A stretch of 38,369 nucleotides of DNA from Gracilaria vermiculophylla (taxonomy: Eukaryota; Rhodophyta; Florideophyceae; Gracilariales; Gracilariaceae). Made by a program: the position numbers and the translations under genes. Below the pieces are notes generated by a model. It was given only the letters and a program-made list of their open reading frames with translations. It was not told the DNA's origin and did no database searches. How positions within the stretch are numbered: the stretch's first letter is position 1; every line of letters begins with the position of its first letter. The stretch is from the NCBI GenBank assembly GCA_019155205.2, contig JAHNZQ020000181.1, forward strand, positions 2,703,929 to 2,742,297. The letters are read 5' to 3'. Shown piece after piece: positions 16,570 to 37,943 of this stretch.

Positions 16570-19500
16570 ATGCCGGTCGCGTCACTCTCTTCCGCTCTTA
16601 AACCTCGAGAAGAATGGCTACGGCCTCCAATCGATACTATCAATCCCGGCATAGACCCACTGCAGGTCATGCAAGTTGATGTATCCGACGACTACGCTGT
16701 TAGGCCGAATGGTTCGGCAATCTTACGCCTTTTCGGTGTCACAGAGAAAGGGAACAGCGTCCTTTTGAGGGTTAATAGCTTTTATCACTACTTTTACACA
16801 CCGGTTCTTCACGATGTGGATGCTAACCTTCTCAAAAAAGCATTGAACCTGTCTTTGATGAAAAGTCATGCCGGTATGAAGAATGATATTGTGATCGATG
16901 TCCAGACTGAAACAAAACGAAACATTATGTACTTTGTGCCAGGTGACCCAGAAATGCAGTTCTTCAAAATCACTGTACTTCATCCGCGATATATGAAGGA
17001 AACTGCATCTTTACTACAATCTGGAGGTCTCCAAGTGGAATCAGAGCACGGTCCCAAAACACTTCCACAACTACTAACCTTTGAGTCAACCCTGGACTAC
17101 GCGTTGCGCTTTATGATAGAAACAGGCCTCGTAGGTTGTTCATGGTTGACGATACCGCCGAAGAAGTACGAATTGCGTTCTGCAAATGAACGAGAGTCTC
17201 TTCTTCAAATTGAAATTGACGTCCATGCTGATGATATAATATCTCACAAACCGGAAGGAAAGTGGCTTGCCACGGCCCCTCTGCGACGATTATCTTTCGA
17301 CATAGAATGTGCTGGGAGGAAGGGCGTCTTTCCCGAACCTCAGCATGATAGCGTGATTCAGATTGCCAACTACGTTTGGGACCACACTCAACCCAAGCCA
17401 GTTGCCCAGGTCGTGTTTACGCTAAAAAGCTGTGCAGCGATCGTGGGGGCCCATGTGCTTTCATATGAAGAAGAGGAGGCGATGTTATCTGCATGGGCGC
17501 GATTTGTACAACTCACAGATCCAGATATCCTCACTGGTTATAACATTGTCAACTTTGACCTCCCTTATCTTCTCGACCGCGCAACAGAACTGAAAGTTAA
17601 TGGTTTTCCTTATCTTGGACGTCTCCGAAACGCAAGAACAACCATGAGAAAAACGAGGATGAGCTCTTCTGCTTTTGGAACACACGAGTCAAGATCGTTC
17701 GCGATCCACGGCCGTGCTGTTTTTGATATGTTGCAGCTAATCACCAGAGAATACAAGTTGAGGTCTTACTCGTTGAACTCTGTTTCTGCCGAATTTCTCG
17801 GACAACAAAAAGAAGATGTTCACTACAGCATCATATCCGATCTGCAGAACGGAGATGAGCAAACGCGAAGACGCCTGGCTGTGTATTGCCTGAAAGATGC
17901 TTTACTCCCAATTAAGTTGATGGACAAGTTACTCGCTTTGACAAATTACATGGAAATGGCGCGCGTGACTGGAATTCCGTTGGGCTGGCTCGTGTCTCGT
18001 GGGCATATGGTCAAGGTCGTCAGCCTTTTGCATCGAAAGAGCCATGCCGTGGATCTTTTGATCCCGGACTTGAAGAGGCAGATGGGGGAAGCAGGCTCTG
18101 GGGATGGGCCACAATTTGAAGGGGCAACCGTTATTGAGCCCCAAAAAGGTTTCTATCAAGATCCCATCGCCACTCTTGATTTCGCATCCCTGTATCCATC
18201 GATTATTATGGCTCACAACTTGTGCTACAGTACATTAATCCGGCCACATCATTTGAACCACATGAGTCCAGAAGACTACACCACTAGTCCTAGTGGCTCT
18301 CATTTTGTAAAGAAGTCGGTCAAGAAAGGAATCTTGACCAAAATTTTGGAAGAGCTTCTTGCTGCGAGAAAGCAGGCTAAAAAAGATTTGAAGGAAGCCA
18401 AGGACCCTTTTCTGAAGTCTGTGTTGAATGGTCGTCAGTTGGCTCTTAAGATCTCAGCAAATGCTGTCTACGGTTTTACGGGTGCTTCTGTAGGAAAACT
18501 TCCATGTATGGATATATCAGCTTCAACTACTGCTTATGGGCGTCAGATGATTGAAAGCACTAAGGCCGAAGTTGAGAAACGGTACAAGGAGGCAACGGTA
18601 ATCTACGGCGATACGGATTCTGTTATGATCAAGTTTGGGAAACAGAAATCTCTGGAAGAAAGCATGCGCTTGGGAGAGGAAGCGGCAGAAGCGATATCTC
18701 AAGTTTTCCCAAAACCGGTCAAACTGGAATTTGAGAAATGTTACTATCCGTACCTGCTCATAAACAAAAAACGATATGCCGGTTTGCTTTGGACAAACAC
18801 GAAGACTTTCGACAAAATGGATTGTAAGGGGGTAGAATCGGTGCGCCGAGATAATTGTCGACTCGTGGCCAATCTTATTTCTACATCTCTTGAACTCTTG
18901 CTTAAGAAGCAAGATCTTGAAAAGGCTATCGAAATGGTTAAGCATACCATCTCAGATCTTTTGCAGAACAAAATCGACATTTCTTTACTTGTCGTTTCAA
19001 AAGCATTGACCAAGACCGACTATGAGGCCAAACAAGCTCATGTGACTTTAGCTGAGAAGATGAAGAAACGGGATCCAGGAACTGCTCCATCTTTAGGCGA
19101 TCGTGTTCCTTATGTCATTACCCATGGAGCAAAGAAAGAACCAGCATATTCAAGGGCAGAAGACCCTCTCTATGTGTTGGAAAACAATGTGCCGATTGAT
19201 AATAAGTATTACTTGGAAAACATGCTAAGAAAGCCTTTGGAGCGAATATTTGAACCTGTCATGGGAAAGAGGGTGTCATCTTTGTTTGTTGGTGAACACA
19301 CAAGGACGGTTTCGGTGGTAACTTCGAAAAAAGGTGCATTAATGAAATTTGCAAAAGTAAGGCTAAGTTGTTTGGGATGCAGGTCTCCGGTAGATGAAGG
19401 GGCCATTTGCAAGTATTGCGTGCCCAAAGAGGCTGCAATATATTCAAAGCATTTGAAGAATGTGGTCGAACTAGAAAAAGTGTATTCCTCTTTATGGACC

Positions 19501-19644
19501 GAGTGCCAACGCTGCATGGGTGAAATATGCCATGATGTGCTGTGCAGCAACGGAGATTGTCCGATATTCTATCGTCGAAGAAAGGCTCAGAAGGACTTGG
19601 ATTATGCGACAGAAAGGCTCCAAAGGTTTGAGCTTGAATGGTAG
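16570..19644 (+). CDS. POLD1: DNA polymerase delta catalytic subunit
   Basis: Family B replicative polymerase of 1024 residues that synthesises the lagging strand with PCNA. The start is the ATG at 16570; codons further upstream contain no ATG. The 3'-5' exonuclease has ExoI SFDIECAG (Asp244, Glu246), ExoII YNIVNFDLPY (Asp330) and ExoIII YCLKDA (Tyr439, Asp443). Polymerase motif A is LDFASLYPSII (Asp537), motif B KISANAVYG (627-635) and motif C YGDTDS (679-684). The C-terminus has the CysA zinc finger (CLGC...CKYC) and the CysB iron-sulfur site (CQRCMGE...CSNGDCPIFY). All catalytic residues are intact. No intron is needed. Confidence 0.97.
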   Translation: MPVASLSSALKPREEWLRPPIDTINPGIDPLQVMQVDVSDDYAVRPNGSAILRLFGVTEKGNSVLLRVNSFYHYFYTPVLHDVDANLLKKALNLSLMKSHAGMKNDIVIDVQTETKRNIMYFVPGDPEMQFFKITVLHPRYMKETASLLQSGGLQVESEHGPKTLPQLLTFESTLDYALRFMIETGLVGCSWLTIPPKKYELRSANERESLLQIEIDVHADDIISHKPEGKWLATAPLRRLSFDIECAGRKGVFPEPQHDSVIQIANYVWDHTQPKPVAQVVFTLKSCAAIVGAHVLSYEEEEAMLSAWARFVQLTDPDILTGYNIVNFDLPYLLDRATELKVNGFPYLGRLRNARTTMRKTRMSSSAFGTHESRSFAIHGRAVFDMLQLITREYKLRSYSLNSVSAEFLGQQKEDVHYSIISDLQNGDEQTRRRLAVYCLKDALLPIKLMDKLLALTNYMEMARVTGIPLGWLVSRGHMVKVVSLLHRKSHAVDLLIPDLKRQMGEAGSGDGPQFEGATVIEPQKGFYQDPIATLDFASLYPSIIMAHNLCYSTLIRPHHLNHMSPEDYTTSPSGSHFVKKSVKKGILTKILEELLAARKQAKKDLKEAKDPFLKSVLNGRQLALKISANAVYGFTGASVGKLPCMDISASTTAYGRQMIESTKAEVEKRYKEATVIYGDTDSVMIKFGKQKSLEESMRLGEEAAEAISQVFPKPVKLEFEKCYYPYLLINKKRYAGLLWTNTKTFDKMDCKGVESVRRDNCRLVANLISTSLELLLKKQDLEKAIEMVKHTISDLLQNKIDISLLVVSKALTKTDYEAKQAHVTLAEKMKKRDPGTAPSLGDRVPYVITHGAKKEPAYSRAEDPLYVLENNVPIDNKYYLENMLRKPLERIFEPVMGKRVSSLFVGEHTRTVSVVTSKKGALMKFAKVRLSCLGCRSPVDEGAICKYCVPKEAAIYSKHLKNVVELEKVYSSLWTECQRCMGEICHDVLCSNGDCPIFYRRRKAQKDLDYATERLQRFELEW

Positions 19645-19905: not shown

Positions 19906-21474
19906 TTATGAAAACGGCTTAGTTTGATATTCAATAAACTCGCGGAGCTGCGCATATGCTTCATCCAGGTTATCGTTGATCAAGGTTAAATCAAAAATGT
20001 TCGATGTGGCCGCATAAGACATTTCTCTCATGGCCGTGTTTAAACGCGTCTTTAATGTCTGAGTAGTCTCAGTCCCGCGATTTTTTAACCGTTCTTCCAG
20101 GGCCGACATGTTAGGCGGCGCAATCCAGACGAAGATAGGTTGCCATGAAAGGTCTGATTTCTTTCGCAGGGCCTCGATTCCCTGGATGTCCAAATCCAAC
20201 ACACAGAACGTGTCTCTTTCCAAAACGGCATTCACAGCCTCGTAAGATGTACCGTAGTACTGCCCATGCACGTGGGCATACTCAACAAACTTATCTGAAC
20301 CTATCATATCTTCAAACTGTTCATGGGATACAAAAATATAATCTCGACCTTCAAGCTCATTAGGACGCGGATCACGTGTGGTATGGGAGACGCTGTATTG
20401 GAACTTCTGAGGGAATTCATCCATGAGCCTGTGTATCAACGTCGACTTCCCTACTCCGGACGGCCCTGCGAAAACAAAGACTGGTTTGGACATTGAAGTT
20501 TCAGTGTATACAGCATCAGTGTCTTGTTGCATCCTCTTGATTTTTCGCGCCGCAAGTGCCGCGACTGTACCAATCATGCCCGTCTTCCCTATTTCAATTC
20601 GCGAAAAACTGTCCACAAACTCATTGAAGGTGCGAGCAAAAAATGGAAGTTTGTAAGTGAGCAAGCCCAGAACAACAGCAAGCGCTTGTTGCCGATCAAG
20701 TATCCCCAACATTTCTGAAGGGGATCTTGCCCCGTTAGAAAGGGCGAGGAGGATAAATGGAAGAGGCGGAAGAGCAAATCGAAATACGAGGAAGCGTGAG
20801 AAAAAGGTGGGTATGCCTAGCGCATCCACACTAGCTTGCAACATGACGAGATATGCGACGGAAGTTGCTGCACCGTAAGCATAGGCCATGGCCAAGTTTT
20901 TTCCAAACAGTACAGCTGAAAATGCCGTTCCCGTAGCTGCTATTACAAGCGTGGTGTTGAAGAGATTTGCTTTGAGTTTTCGATATTCTTCAGCAGCACG
21001 CTCCCGCGCCTCATTATCCATGGGTTTGACGTAAGCATAGCCGTCAGGGACGTTTGGAATACGATATGCATCCTGATCTGGCACATATACAGCATCGCGA
21101 GCCACGCGAATTTGGGCCACGTCGAACCATCTGAGCTTCCTATTGCGAGCAGACTGCAAGGCGAAAAGGTCAGTGCTCATTCTCCGCATTTCATGAACGT
21201 CGACAATCACTCGTTGTTGGGCGTCTCGCACGCTGTCTACGACACCTGCATTCTGTTCCCCTGCCCATTTTCCGGAGTACAATACGACATCCCCTGGCTG
21301 TGGCACAACAAAGCCACGAGAGTCAAGACGTTCGTCAGCAGCAGTGGCGCGTACGGGAAGCCGACCTCGGCCGGCAGCTATAGGACGGTTGAATGTTTGC
21401 TGCTGAACAGGACCAATTGGCCGTTTTGTTAGCGGTAACGCGGACAAAAACGCAAAGGCTCGTGCAGATGCCAT
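19906..21474 (-). CDS. Fusion: plastid transit peptide, UncI/CGL160-like membrane domain, guanylate kinase
   Basis: The protein has 522 residues. Residues 1-45 (MASARAFAFLSALPL) look like a red algal plastid transit peptide. Residues 55-130 are soluble and beta-rich, with GDVVLYSGKWAGEQ. Residues 160-282 are a charged helix (ERAAEEYRKLKANL) followed by about four hydrophobic segments. YAYGAATSVAYLVMLQASVD (198-217) and the later AVVLGLLTYK (266-275) resemble the UncI/Atp1 domain of cyanobacterial ATP synthase protein I and plant CGL160. Residues 328-522 are a complete guanylate kinase (GMP + ATP to GDP + ADP), with P-loop GPSGVGKST (337-345), SHTTRDPRP, GRDYIFV, VEYAHVHGQYYGTS and LDLDIQG. 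Met328 (ATG at 20491-20493) begins MSKPVFVFAGPSG, as a stand-alone kinase would. Kinase identity is very firm; the UncI similarity is by pattern only. Confidence 0.9.
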   Translation of the reverse strand: MASARAFAFLSALPLTKRPIGPVQQQTFNRPIAAGRGRLPVRATAADERLDSRGFVVPQPGDVVLYSGKWAGEQNAGVVDSVRDAQQRVIVDVHEMRRMSTDLFALQSARNRKLRWFDVAQIRVARDAVYVPDQDAYRIPNVPDGYAYVKPMDNEARERAAEEYRKLKANLFNTTLVIAATGTAFSAVLFGKNLAMAYAYGAATSVAYLVMLQASVDALGIPTFFSRFLVFRFALPPLPFILLALSNGARSPSEMLGILDRQQALAVVLGLLTYKLPFFARTFNEFVDSFSRIEIGKTGMIGTVAALAARKIKRMQQDTDAVYTETSMSKPVFVFAGPSGVGKSTLIHRLMDEFPQKFQYSVSHTTRDPRPNELEGRDYIFVSHEQFEDMIGSDKFVEYAHVHGQYYGTSYEAVNAVLERDTFCVLDLDIQGIEALRKKSDLSWQPIFVWIAPPNMSALEERLKNRGTETTQTLKTRLNTAMREMSYAATSNIFDLTLINDNLDEAYAQLREFIEYQTKPFS

Positions 21475-33160: not shown

Positions 33161-35044
33161 TGCGCGGGCGGGCGCCTCGCTCAGAAAAAGAATGTCCCCA
33201 ACTGGGAGCAGCGACCAATGCAAGTCGTCCTCACCTCTTCCGCTTTGCGGCGGGGTTGCCATCGACAGGCAGCGCCTCCGCAACGACATGTTGTTGCCGA
33301 TGTTACGTGAGGGCCGCCGCCGAAGAAGGAAGCCTAAGGGGCCGACGCCACCCCGGCGACTGCCCACCTCCTCTGCCGTTGTTGTCGACGTCGCCGCGCT
33401 TGTTCGCCGCTAAATTGAGCTGCTCGACGCGTCGCAACGCGGATGCACCCGCCGCGGCGTTCGCCGCAGCACCCTCCTGCGCCCCCGCGCCCTCGCGCGC
33501 CATTCTGCCACGTCTTCCGCGGCGTTGACGGCCGCCCACGCCCTCTCTTGCGGCAGAGGTCACACCTTGGCCGTGTCTCGCTGAGCTTCGCCGCGCCAAA
33601 TTGTGTGCGCAGCCAACGAGAGACGCTCTGCATTCCGTATTCGTCCGCGCGGAACGAGGCTGTCGACCAAGCACCTCTCGAGAGCTCCCTGAACACAAAC
33701 GTGCACGGTCCACCTGTAACTCTGAACCAAGTCAGTTGGTCCACGTCCACATGCCAAGTTATCCCACGCTCATCTCAAATCAATCTCTATTGCCTCACAT
33801 TGATAGAGACATCACCGCCGCGTGCATCCAGCGTTGTGACCAGCCTCCATCATCTGCAACTTGCGCCCTGTGAATCGGTGAATCGTCAACGTCGCATGCT
33901 TCACAAAACGCCGCTTTTTCTTGGAGTGCCGGTGCTTCGGACGAAGGTGTGCGACCAGTCCTTCGAGCCTCGCTTCGAGCGACCTAACCGACCATCAATC
34001 CGACAAGAAAATCGGTACAAAAACAATTGTTGTGCTTTCATATCATTAATTGTCTGATCTGTCGCTCACTATTACTGTTAGCAGCTTCAATAGTGACAAG
34101 TTATAGGTCTCTGGAAGAAGTCGTGCTCAGTACATGCCGGCAGCAGGCACCACCACAACTCCAACATCTATATGCAGCTCGGTCCAGTTTGTCGTAAATT
34201 TCGTCAAAATCTGGAGCCCTCTCCTTGAATTTTGATCTCCTGAACAGCCGCATCTTTCGAGAGAGAGATGCATCTGACCTGCATTTAACCATACACACCA
34301 AGAATCTCACACACGAATGGAACAACTATTGTTCACTGTGGATAGGTCCCGACCAACAGAGTACAAACATAAGCGTCACGGGAACGTCTCGTCAAAAGCC
34401 ACGAACGTGTCATTGAATTCACTGAATTGAAAACTATGGCGGTGAATCATTCAAAGGTTTCTGGCGTGTATGAAACGATCACGGCTTGACTCTGGAGAGT
34501 CAGGCGGCGTGCAAACGCCGACCGTCACTTTATTCTGCGCGGTGCACTGGAACGTATGGTCCATCTACGCTGTTCCAGTTAACGGCCATAAATGCCCTTT
34601 TCACCGTCCCTCGCAAACATGCATAGAGCAATGTTTTGCGTACCAAGCGACCCAGACGTTGTGACTGTCTTTAAAACCCTTACGACAAAACCCATTTTGA
34701 AAAATTTTGCAGCACAAGGAAAAAGTATTCTTTGCACACTTATCTGATAAGTAAAGCTTCTCATATTCATTCCCAAAGTATGCATTTATACCACCTGTAG
34801 AAACACAAACATAATAATAATAATAAAGGAAGTTGATGGTCTGCACACAGTAAAATAAAATTCGTAATCTGCACAATAAGCGTATCTCCTCAAAATATTC
34901 TGTTCCTACCGCAATTGTGAGCAAATGAGCTGGTTGTATATCGGAGCTTACTTTTATTATGTCAAACACTACAGTAGAACAGCTAGACTTAAGCTCACAG
35001 CAATCGAGCTCCAAGTAAAGTGGAGGCAGAGCTATCCTCTCACA
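33161..35044. other. Gene-poor stretch; right part probably 5' LTR
   Basis: GC-rich to about 33960, then AT-rich. The frame at 33443-34057 begins as a Pro/Arg run and matches nothing. The DNA just before 35044 probably belongs to the 5' LTR of the copia-like element. It ends CTCTCACA at 35044, directly before a primer-binding site. I cannot fix the left edge of the LTR, because its partner lies outside the window. An ATA microsatellite lies near 34812-34826. Confidence 0.45.
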
Positions 35045-35056
35045 GGTTATGGTCCC
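35045..35056 (+). other. Primer-binding site like Drosophila copia (internal initiator-Met tRNA)
   Basis: GGTTATGGTCCC directly follows the LTR-like end ...TCACA. It resembles the reverse complement of the initiator tRNA anticodon loop region (GGTTATGAGCCC type), as in Drosophila copia, which primes from a cleaved half tRNA. Ten of twelve bases agree with that generic form. Confidence 0.6.
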
Positions 35057-35331
35057 GAACGCTACCACTCCGACTCCATTTGCAAAACGACAACATCCCC
35101 TCACACGTCCAACACCACCACGAATTCCCAAGACGCAAGAACTCTTCGTCGTGACACACGACAATACCTGAAGGACCTTCAGGAACTTACCACGGAGTTA
35201 TACACCAACGCCATTCACGAACACACCGACACAAATAAGCCACAAGACACTACACAACAAACGACAGCTATGGACACCGAACACCACCTCAAGATACCTG
35301 AACTCGACCCATCCAACTATGCTCCCTGGTA

Positions 35332-35357
35332 CAGTGCGTTTCAAAAATATAGGACAC
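35332..35357 (+). repeat. Tc1 left terminal repeat (outer)
   Basis: CAGTGC followed by a 20-bp core, GTTTCAAAAATATAGGACAC, that is identical in inverse at the right end. Confidence 0.93.
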
Positions 35358-35427
35358 TGCAAAAGTGCGCCAAAATATGAATTTTTGCCCACTGTAGCCA
35401 CCCTTCTTCGTTAATACCATCAAAAAC

Positions 35428-35449
35428 GCGTTTCAAAAGTATAGGACAT
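35428..35449 (+). repeat. Tc1 left inner direct repeat
   Basis: A 22-bp copy of the terminal repeat matching the outer copy (35336-35357) at 20 positions, in the same orientation, 92 bp inward. Confidence 0.85.
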
Positions 35450-35467
35450 TCTTAGTATCCCTTAGTT

Positions 35468-36463
35468 ATGGCGAGAGGAAGTCCACTTTCGCTTTCAGAA
35501 CAGCACCGAATCCTTAAAGATAAAGCAAAATAACACAACGTCTTCAATATTGCTAAGACACTAGGCCGTTCGCGTCATATTGTAGCATCTTTTCTATCAA
35601 ATCCGACAAAATATGGATTTGAACGTTCCCCTGGACGCCCGAAACTTCTGAAACCAGCTGATGAGAGGGCGTATAAAGCGCGAACTATCGTTAGGAAGTG
35701 CGTCGTGCGCAAAAATGGCAAAAGCATTGCCTAAACAAGCTCAAAATCAACAGTATGGCGAGCAATCAAACAAACAAATTTGCATCGATTCGTAAATATG
35801 AAAAAATCATTCGTTTTGCAGGACCACCATAAAGCAAATCGCGTTGCATGGTGTGCTCAGATGGATTGCTGGAAAAGTGAATGGAAAGATGTTATATTCT
35901 CAGATAAGAAGAAGTTCAATTTAGACGGACCAGATTGCTTTAAATATTATCGGCATGATCTGAGAAAAGAAAAGAAGACTTTCACATCCAGGCATTCAGG
36001 TAGAGCTTCTGTTTTGGTGTGGGCTGGAATCTCTAAGAAATGTACAACTGATACTGCTTTTATTGAATGTAATATGAATTCGGAAGGTTATCAGAATGTT
36101 TTTTACAACTACTTGTTACTATTTGCATATTGCTTGCGTGGAAATGATTTTGTTTTTCAGCAAGATAACGCTGCAGTACACACCTCTATTCACATGTAAG
36201 ATTGGTTCTCTGAGCTTGGCATGAATGTCATGCAGTGGCCAGCGCGATCGCCGGATTCAAACCCTATTGAAAACGTCTGGGGTTTACTGGCTAGGATGGT
36301 TTCTGGCCATGGCAGGCAGTTTAATACAGTTTTTTATTTAAAAACTTGTATTGAAAATTTCTGGAAAACTATCAATAGTTCAACTATAGATTATTACATA
36401 GATTCAATGCGAAAGCGTTGCATTAGTGTAATCCAGCAAAAAGGTGCAAAAGTCAATTATTGA
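35468..36463 (+). pseudogene. Tc1-like transposase with three in-frame TAA codons
   Basis: One reading frame of 331 codons runs from the ATG at 35468 to the TGA at 36461-36463. It is interrupted only by TAA at 35531, 35732 and 36197. The N-terminal helix-turn-helix region includes FNIAKTLGRSRHIVASFL, followed by a GRPR-like SPGRPK. The DDE residues lie in VIFSDKKKFNLDGPD, FQQDNAAVHTS and SPDSNPIENVWG. Thirty-four positions separate the second Asp from the Glu, the DD34E spacing of Tc1 rather than the DD34D of mariner. No frameshift was needed, so decay is by point mutation and probably recent. Confidence 0.9.
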
Positions 36464-36491
36464 ACAAGAGATAATGACCGTTTGAATTAAA

Positions 36492-36512
36492 GTGTCCTAT
36501 CATTTTCAAACG
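36492..36512 (-). repeat. Tc1 right inner repeat
   Basis: Inverse copy of the terminal repeat with about three mismatches in 21 bp, roughly 100 bp inside the right end. Confidence 0.75.
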
Positions 36513-36592
36513 ATTCTTAACTTAACATTTTTCAAAAACTGGTTTGCATAGGCCTACAGTACTAAAATTGATGATTTGCATCAAAATGCCAG

Positions 36593-36618
36593 GTGTCCTA
36601 TATTTTTGAAACAGACTT
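36593..36618 (-). repeat. Tc1 right terminal repeat (outer)
   Basis: Inverted partner of 35332-35357; 23 of 26 positions agree. Followed by the TA target copy at 36619-36620. Confidence 0.93.
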
Positions 36619-37943
36619 TACCTAGCCTTGGAGACCTACGCCATCACTATCGAAGCAACTGCACACCTTGATTCCAACCCCACTGCACCCACGGACCCAG
36701 CTCTCCTCAAAACGCACACAAACAAGAAGTCCAAGCTCCTTTCCGCCATACTAAGCAGTGTACCGCCTCCTTTACTCGGTCTCTTATTAGTACCGAAGTT
36801 CGCCCTACGCCATATGACCTCGTCCACTTTATTAAGATACACATTAACCAATCTACGAAGGACGACCATAAGTTCTTGAAAACCGAAGCAGAAAGCGTAC
36901 CATTCACCGCCGACACGGACATAGACGAGTATATCACAACCCACACCTCCATTAGACAAAAAATGATAGCAGCACGCTATCCAAACATCAAGGATGAGGA
37001 AACCACTGTGGATTTTATCCTAGCAGGACTACGCAACAACAGCACCCTCACACCCATCTTAGCCCCCATCATCCTACAGAAACCCAACACGATCAAGCAA
37101 TTTGTTAGAAGCTTCAAGGAACTGCATTCCCTCTACAATCCAATTCATGGACCGACGCCTTCCGCATCAGCAACATTGGGCTTCACCGGGGACTATCCGA
37201 CACCTCGATTCACCGGGGACTACCGCGGCCGGAGATTCCGAAGACCATACCGAGAATACCGCCGCAATTCATACCCCAGAAGCCTCCCACCAGGCGCAAC
37301 TCCGTGCAGATTTCACACGTCCCTAGGAATACCCTCTTCACACACCGATGCACAATGCAAAGATAGGCGACACCCAAAGTACCACATGAAACCCCAGGCC
37401 AACTATGCACGCCTGCATGATCCTCATCAACATACTCCCCCATCCCCGGTATTCCCCACTCCCCACTTCACTAAAGCCCAACAACCTTTACCATCCCCTC
37501 ATCAGGCACCAGATATCACTTTAGAGGCGGACACAGAATCCCATAGTACGTTTCTCTTAGACAGCGGTGCCCACCCATCTCACATCCAAAACCCCACTCC
37601 CGCCATGACCCCACCCCGCGACCCTATTCTGACCACCACCGCAACAAACACACAGACCAGATGCACCCACCATGGAAACATTCACATCCACCCCCACAAT
37701 AGTCCACACACGCTCACCACGTATGCGGTGTCCAACAAACACCTCAAACACAACCTACTGTCAGTCAATGACCTGGCCCACCGCTACGGACTAGTCCTCT
37801 TCACACCCAGAAAAGGATACATAACCAGCACCCAAACCAAACATCCGACGATCGTAGCAGCAGCATCCTGGACGACCAATCAATACCAACTTAGCGGCAA
37901 GGTCAGTAACGCGTACACGTCAAGAACAATTCCCCGTAAATAA

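Follow-up and report, generated by a model that had tools for sequence, protein, structure and literature searches.

In Arabidopsis, CGL160 (At2g31040) aids the building of the ATP synthase c-ring and recruits CF1 through its stromal N-terminus, and Atp1 of Synechocystis can substitute for its membrane domain, according to passages of PMC9806626. Conservation of CGL160 has been described for the green lineage alone, and the conservation of Atp1 in diatoms is mentioned in a passage of PMC4383579. In this study, we analyzed a red algal gene that joins a domain of this family to a guanylate kinase. It occupies positions 19906-21474 (minus strand) of a 38,369-nucleotide stretch of Gracilaria vermiculophylla DNA (assembly GCA_019155205.2, contig JAHNZQ020000181.1, positions 2,703,929 to 2,742,297), which is called the window below. 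Its likeness to CGL160 and to cyanobacterial Atp1/UncI lies in the four-helix CGL160_C domain, predicted plastid targeting and a soluble N-terminal extension. However, the red algal fusion is another form of this factor: its N-terminus forms an SH3-like barrel, for which no relation to the CF1-beta-binding N-terminus of the green proteins has been shown, and the guanylate kinase comes after the last helix.

The kinase half has its own known counterparts. Rice GKpm (VIRESCENT 2) is likewise a kinase of guanosine monophosphate (GMP) that is predicted for the plastid and able to limit the plastid pool of guanosine triphosphate (GTP). GKpm is a soluble protein, whereas the kinase of the fusion would be tethered to a membrane by four preceding predicted helices and is the sole guanylate kinase found in the assembly. 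Human GUK1 and yeast Guk1 differ from the fusion in being small and in having neither a targeting signal nor a membrane part. The MAGUK scaffolds (SH3-GK, e.g. PSD-95) also carry SH3-like and guanylate kinase domains in one polypeptide, but their kinase domains are non-catalytic with a degenerate nucleotide-binding site, whereas the fusion has a complete P-loop and GMP site, and its barrel and kinase are set apart by four predicted membrane helices. In the open-access literature, a scope outside which most subscription journals lie, we found no title or passage on a fusion of CGL160/Atp1 with a guanylate kinase. On present evidence, we consider it probable that the gene specifies a red algal plastid protein encoded in the nucleus, a CGL160/Atp1 assembly factor with a working guanylate kinase at its stromal C-terminus.

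Architecture of the fusion gene

The original prediction had read the locus as one uninterrupted frame joining a leader, a beta-rich soluble domain, about four membrane segments and a complete guanylate kinase. The frame was confirmed as 522 codons running from ATG to stop, and when the bases of this interval were shuffled 200 times, the longest six-frame stop-free run had a mean of 108 and a maximum of 209 codons. The proposed parts are likewise present, and the gene divides as follows:

19906..21474, minus strand: whole gene, CGL160-type membrane protein plus guanylate kinase (522 residues, one frame)
21343..21474, minus strand: putative plastid transit peptide, residues ~1-44 (Arg-rich, acidic residues scarce, Phe7 and Phe9)
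21040..21321, minus strand: SH3-like (tudor/chromo-barrel type) soluble domain, residues 52-145
20602..21015, minus strand: CGL160_C/Atp1-type membrane domain, residues 154-291 (PF24763 match, four predicted helices, hydropathy)
20539..20595, minus strand: conserved motif G-K-T-G-M-[IVL]-G-T-x-A-x-L-x-A-R, residues 294-312 (begins the predicted stromal helix 300-324)
20485..20538, minus strand: variable linker, residues 313-330 (mean identity 14%)
19921..20484, minus strand: guanylate kinase domain, residues 331-518 (P-loop GPSGVGKS and GMP-site residues intact)
20575..20577, minus strand: Met300 codon, a hypothetical candidate for the internal start of a soluble kinase

First, the kinase domain matched PF00625 over residues 333-515 (7.9e-56, 189 bits) and the equivalog-level profile TIGR03263 with 201.3 bits against a cut-off of 160.45. 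We aligned the window protein with 46 relatives, several of whose records begin inside the barrel and one of which (P0028) stops inside the kinase, and PF00625 was present in all 47 sequences at E<=0.001. G337, P338, S339, G340, G342, K343, S363, R367 and R370 were invariant, and Y379, E398 and Y407 were each kept in 46 of the 47 (otherwise one H and gaps). If the roles of these nucleotide-binding positions are those of yeast guanylate kinase, as we assume, their integrity predicts GMP kinase activity. The degenerate site of a non-catalytic MAGUK-type domain was not seen, the P-loop being intact in every aligned sequence. Among kinases of solved structure the best match was the multi-kinase FAP42 (199 bits), and among those with a single domain the best matches were animal and yeast enzymes (mouse 171 and yeast 165 bits), with E. 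coli lower (132 bits).

Second, the proposal that the membrane part resembles UncI/CGL160 was borne out by the profile check. PF24763 (CGL160_C) matched the window protein at 8.8e-10, with 39.5 bits against a gathering cut-off of 34.2, and was present at E<=0.001 in 45 of the 47 aligned sequences, some of these matches scoring under the gathering cut-off (e.g. P0018, P0015, P0071 and P0060). The Chondrus crispus protein scored 47.3 bits and covered profile positions 2-130 of 133. In the structural model the helices of the window protein spanned residues 154-190, 192-217, 224-246 (broken) and 261-291, and hydropathy gave four peaks, two of them weak (1.24 and 1.30). Four peaks at the chosen threshold were found in 8 of the 11 sequences scanned, the window included. 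These results support the assignment of the membrane domain to the CGL160/Atp1 family, with four predicted transmembrane helices.

Upstream of the membrane domain, the AlphaFold model of residues 1-325 (mean predicted local distance difference test score 86.9) placed strands between residues 63 and 138. Of 26 Pfam matches at E<=10, 25 were listed, and none of these fell within residues 1-150. An N-terminal extension of at least 25 residues was recognised in 26 of the 47 aligned rows, window included, and all but three of these 26 (P0006, P0028 and P0060) had a Phe within the first 14 residues. A phenylalanine rule applies to protein import into red algal plastids, and, judged by composition and early Phe, the leader, whose mean identity to the window was 17% across the 46 relatives, would direct the fusion protein into the plastid.

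Distribution and origin in red algae

As far as protein searches reach, the architecture proved to be widespread in other red algae. With residues 1-330 as query, 16 matches were obtained, and with a profile of the same residues 26; every one of them bore the kinase Pfam label (16/16 and 26/26, respectively); both searches scored just the 7997 candidates sharing most words. The kinase-part search, restricted to lengths of ~183-583 residues, gave 1633 matches, and among the 120 listed, 35 were of the fusion type by hand count, with the degenerate P0014 among them. The species carrying fusions included Agarophyton chilense, Gracilaria domingensis, Gracilariopsis chorda, Chondrus crispus and Compsopogon caeruleus, the first being the nearest relative (79% identity over residues 1-330). 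Chondrus crispus and Compsopogon caeruleus belong to separate classes of Rhodophyta, the fusions thus spanning Florideophyceae to Compsopogonophyceae. The Compsopogon protein, which spans the fusion, carries the source label mmetsp, which we take to denote a transcriptome project, and therefore a message spanning the fusion probably exists in that species. An artefact of gene modelling or assembly that merged two adjacent genes is extremely improbable, given that the frame in the window has no stop and that 46 database proteins, drawn from several species and sources and including the mmetsp entry, combine membrane part and kinase in a single chain; such recurrence strongly argues against an assembly artefact, and no evidence in its favor was found.

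The architecture is conserved across red algae and its active-site residues are intact. Mean identity to the window across the 46 relatives was 52% for the barrel, 43% for the membrane domain and 59% for the kinase; the motif at residues 294-312 reached 62%, the highest of the six parts compared, and the linker 14%. This pattern suggests that the parts are under constraint, whereas the linker looks like a tether, and the motif between the last helix and the linker is apparently conserved for some purpose. It is conceivable, although we do not favor it, that two unrelated plastid proteins simply share a gene and a targeting signal, each working alone. The variable linker and the intact catalytic site would agree with this, as would the whole-protein model (predicted template modelling score 0.40), in which no fixed arrangement of the parts was predicted and the N-terminal half was poorly resolved. 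However, all 26 relatives retrieved by the non-kinase part were fused, from Florideophyceae to Compsopogonophyceae, with no fission seen, and the motif before the linker is strongly conserved.

With regard to origin, 46 fusion kinases were compared with 24 others in a quick tree, in which the fusions formed one side of one branch, with a Shimodaira-Hasegawa-like approximate likelihood ratio of 89. The labels required one change, a number as low in none of 500 shuffles, and Compsopogon and P0060 were outermost. Thirteen of the 24 other kinases were eukaryotic by name or source, and none was a named bacterial kinase. The two families combined in the fusion are both known, their combination is old, and the simplest reading, with moderate support, is a single old event that joined a eukaryotic-type guanylate kinase to a CGL160-type protein.

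Several results weigh against the reading of a plastid assembly factor with a working kinase. The CGL160_C match in the window spans just profile positions 7-69 of 133, near-full cover coming from the relatives. Two aligned sequences miss the domain at 0.001, namely P0063 (CGL160_C not among the 25 matches listed for this protein) and the Compsopogon protein P0066 (E 0.13), the latter aligned with the non-kinase part at 98 of 289 identical positions (34%). Fewer than four hydropathy peaks were found in P0005, P0063 and P0028, and Foldseek with residues 1-325 gave nothing at E<=0.001 against PDB. The branch support of 89 lies below the mark of 95. Finally, a sole kinase confined to the plastid would leave cytosolic GMP without phosphorylation, which makes the simple reading incomplete.

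Some relatives departed from the common pattern. P0028 (label lgn) has the same order of parts (barrel, CGL160_C and the start of the kinase; 126 of 362 positions identical to the window). Its N-terminus is hydrophobic and signal-peptide-like, a hint that the fusion was passed on to an alga with a complex plastid. P0014 of Gracilaria domingensis (326 residues) is a divergent second copy without the N-terminal half; kinase motif positions invariant in the 47 aligned sequences are altered in it, and it looks like a decaying duplicate. P0029, P0030, P0031 (named Clydaea vesicula) and P0033 contain two or three tandem guanylate kinase units.

The sole kinase gene found and the cytosolic GMP puzzle

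We searched 44.84 Mb of the genome in 27 contigs with two kinase profiles, one of them run to E 10, and the fusion gene was the sole guanylate kinase locus found; two further matches at E<=10 scored ~16 bits, under the cut-off. It was also the sole CGL160_C locus in the assembly. For contrast, adenylate kinase occurred at four places. The GMP synthase frame (517 residues) opens directly in the enzyme without a leader, and no leader was seen in the IMP dehydrogenase frame, though its first exon is possibly missing. From the leaderless GMP synthase, it follows that GMP is probably made in the cytosol, whereas the plastid is the predicted site of the one guanylate kinase found. According to passages of PMC4127815, GKpm exists alongside a separate cytosolic guanylate kinase, which is essential in plants. 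The fusion kinase may be the GMP kinase of the plastid and perhaps the sole one of the cell. Either a second guanylate kinase is absent from the assembly, or there is a second, soluble product, or GMP and guanosine diphosphate (GDP) cross the envelope.

With respect to the second outlet, one gene could yield two products, namely the long fusion in the plastid membrane and a shorter, soluble kinase, cytosolic or mitochondrial, although we regard this as rather unlikely. The short kinase might, tentatively, arise from a downstream transcription start, an internal start codon (Met300, 315 or 328) or proteolytic release. Such an arrangement would explain cytosolic GMP phosphorylation from a single gene, and the one locus found with two profiles, the leaderless GMP synthase and the resemblance of the kinase to eukaryotic enzymes among solved single-domain structures would fit it. 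Met300 was present in 40 of the 47 rows, and 43 rows have at least one Met between the membrane domain and the P-loop. The stretch of residues 300-317 is basic, and its hydrophobic moment is 1.35 (a figure with no control value). However, the Met300 column has no Met in the other 7 rows, and P0050, P0052, P0060 and P0071 (4 of 47) have none at all from the membrane domain to the P-loop. Six in-frame ATGs lie between the first ATG and Met300, and leaky scanning alone is therefore unlikely. A structural role would likewise account for the conservation of the motif. Moreover, a second guanylate kinase may be missing from the assembly only, because 28.2% of BUSCO genes are missing in the published assembly of Gracilaria vermiculophylla (44.95 Mb in 4,240 scaffolds), according to passages of PMC10388701, which also give a median of 69% BUSCO present for red algae.

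Possible role at the thylakoid

For the reading that we favor, a plastid assembly factor with a working kinase, the following course can be proposed. After import by means of the leader, four helices would lie in the thylakoid with both termini stromal, as the helix count and the stromal N-terminus of Arabidopsis CGL160 suggest; with four helices the C-terminus would return to the stroma, and barrel and kinase would both face it. The membrane domain, judging from its family, would aid assembly of the CF1CFo c-ring, while the tethered kinase, whose catalytic residues are present, would convert GMP to GDP at the membrane using ATP. This GDP would feed plastid GTP for plastid translation, and the plastid GMP kinase would be thylakoid-bound in fixed proportion to an ATP synthase assembly factor. 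In rice, the GDP-forming step can limit plastid GTP (a passage of PMC4127815). GMP phosphorylation might in this way be coupled to ATP synthase assembly or thylakoid energetics. In an extended form, which we consider quite unlikely, the only guanylate kinase gene of the cell would be placed under an ATP synthase assembly factor: the long product would reside at the thylakoid sites where ATP synthase is built, plastid GTP (hence plastid translation) and ATP synthase biogenesis would co-vary, and a short product would serve the cytosol.

It appears improbable that the kinase instead acts as a sensor and gates the assembly role of the membrane domain when occupied by GMP, GTP or guanosine tetra- or pentaphosphate, (p)ppGpp, or that it mediates, at the thylakoid, a brake by ppGpp on plastid GTP. 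The genome yielded one RelA/SpoT domain, and the motif between membrane domain and linker had the highest mean identity of the parts compared. In addition, according to passages of PMC8887892 and PMC10107265, the plastid GKpm of plants is inhibited by ppGpp in vitro, and the drop of GTP in nitrogen-starved Arabidopsis requires ppGpp. On the other hand, the kinase is closest to eukaryotic guanylate kinases as judged by best matches, whereas the ppGpp-sensitive ones reported in passages of these two papers and PMC4127815 are those of firmicutes and plant GKpm, and the unconserved linker after the motif is a better fit to a loose tether than to an allosteric joint. The sole RelA/SpoT domain found (L003; G000:C11:969722-970078) lies in a 623-residue frame with an early Ala-Phe, as in the leader of the fusion; plants and algae have at least three families of RelA/SpoT homologues according to a passage of the review PMC10107265.

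If the plastid assembly factor with a working kinase is true, red algae physically tie guanylate supply to the thylakoid and to ATP synthase assembly, two functions that are separate proteins in plants as described in the passages cited above. A factor named for the green lineage would be present in red algae too, in a different form, and the fusion offers a red algal target for studying the influence of plastid GTP and ppGpp on photosynthesis. The single plastid-fused kinase gene also raises the question of cytosolic GTP supply, which is sharply testable.

Elsewhere in the window, a frame at 16570-19644 (plus strand), which we take from its translation to be DNA polymerase delta-like, converges on the fusion gene with 261 bases between them. 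At 34925-37943 (plus strand), frames resemble, judging from a motif in the translation, those for gag and the aspartic protease in retroelements of the Ty1/copia type.
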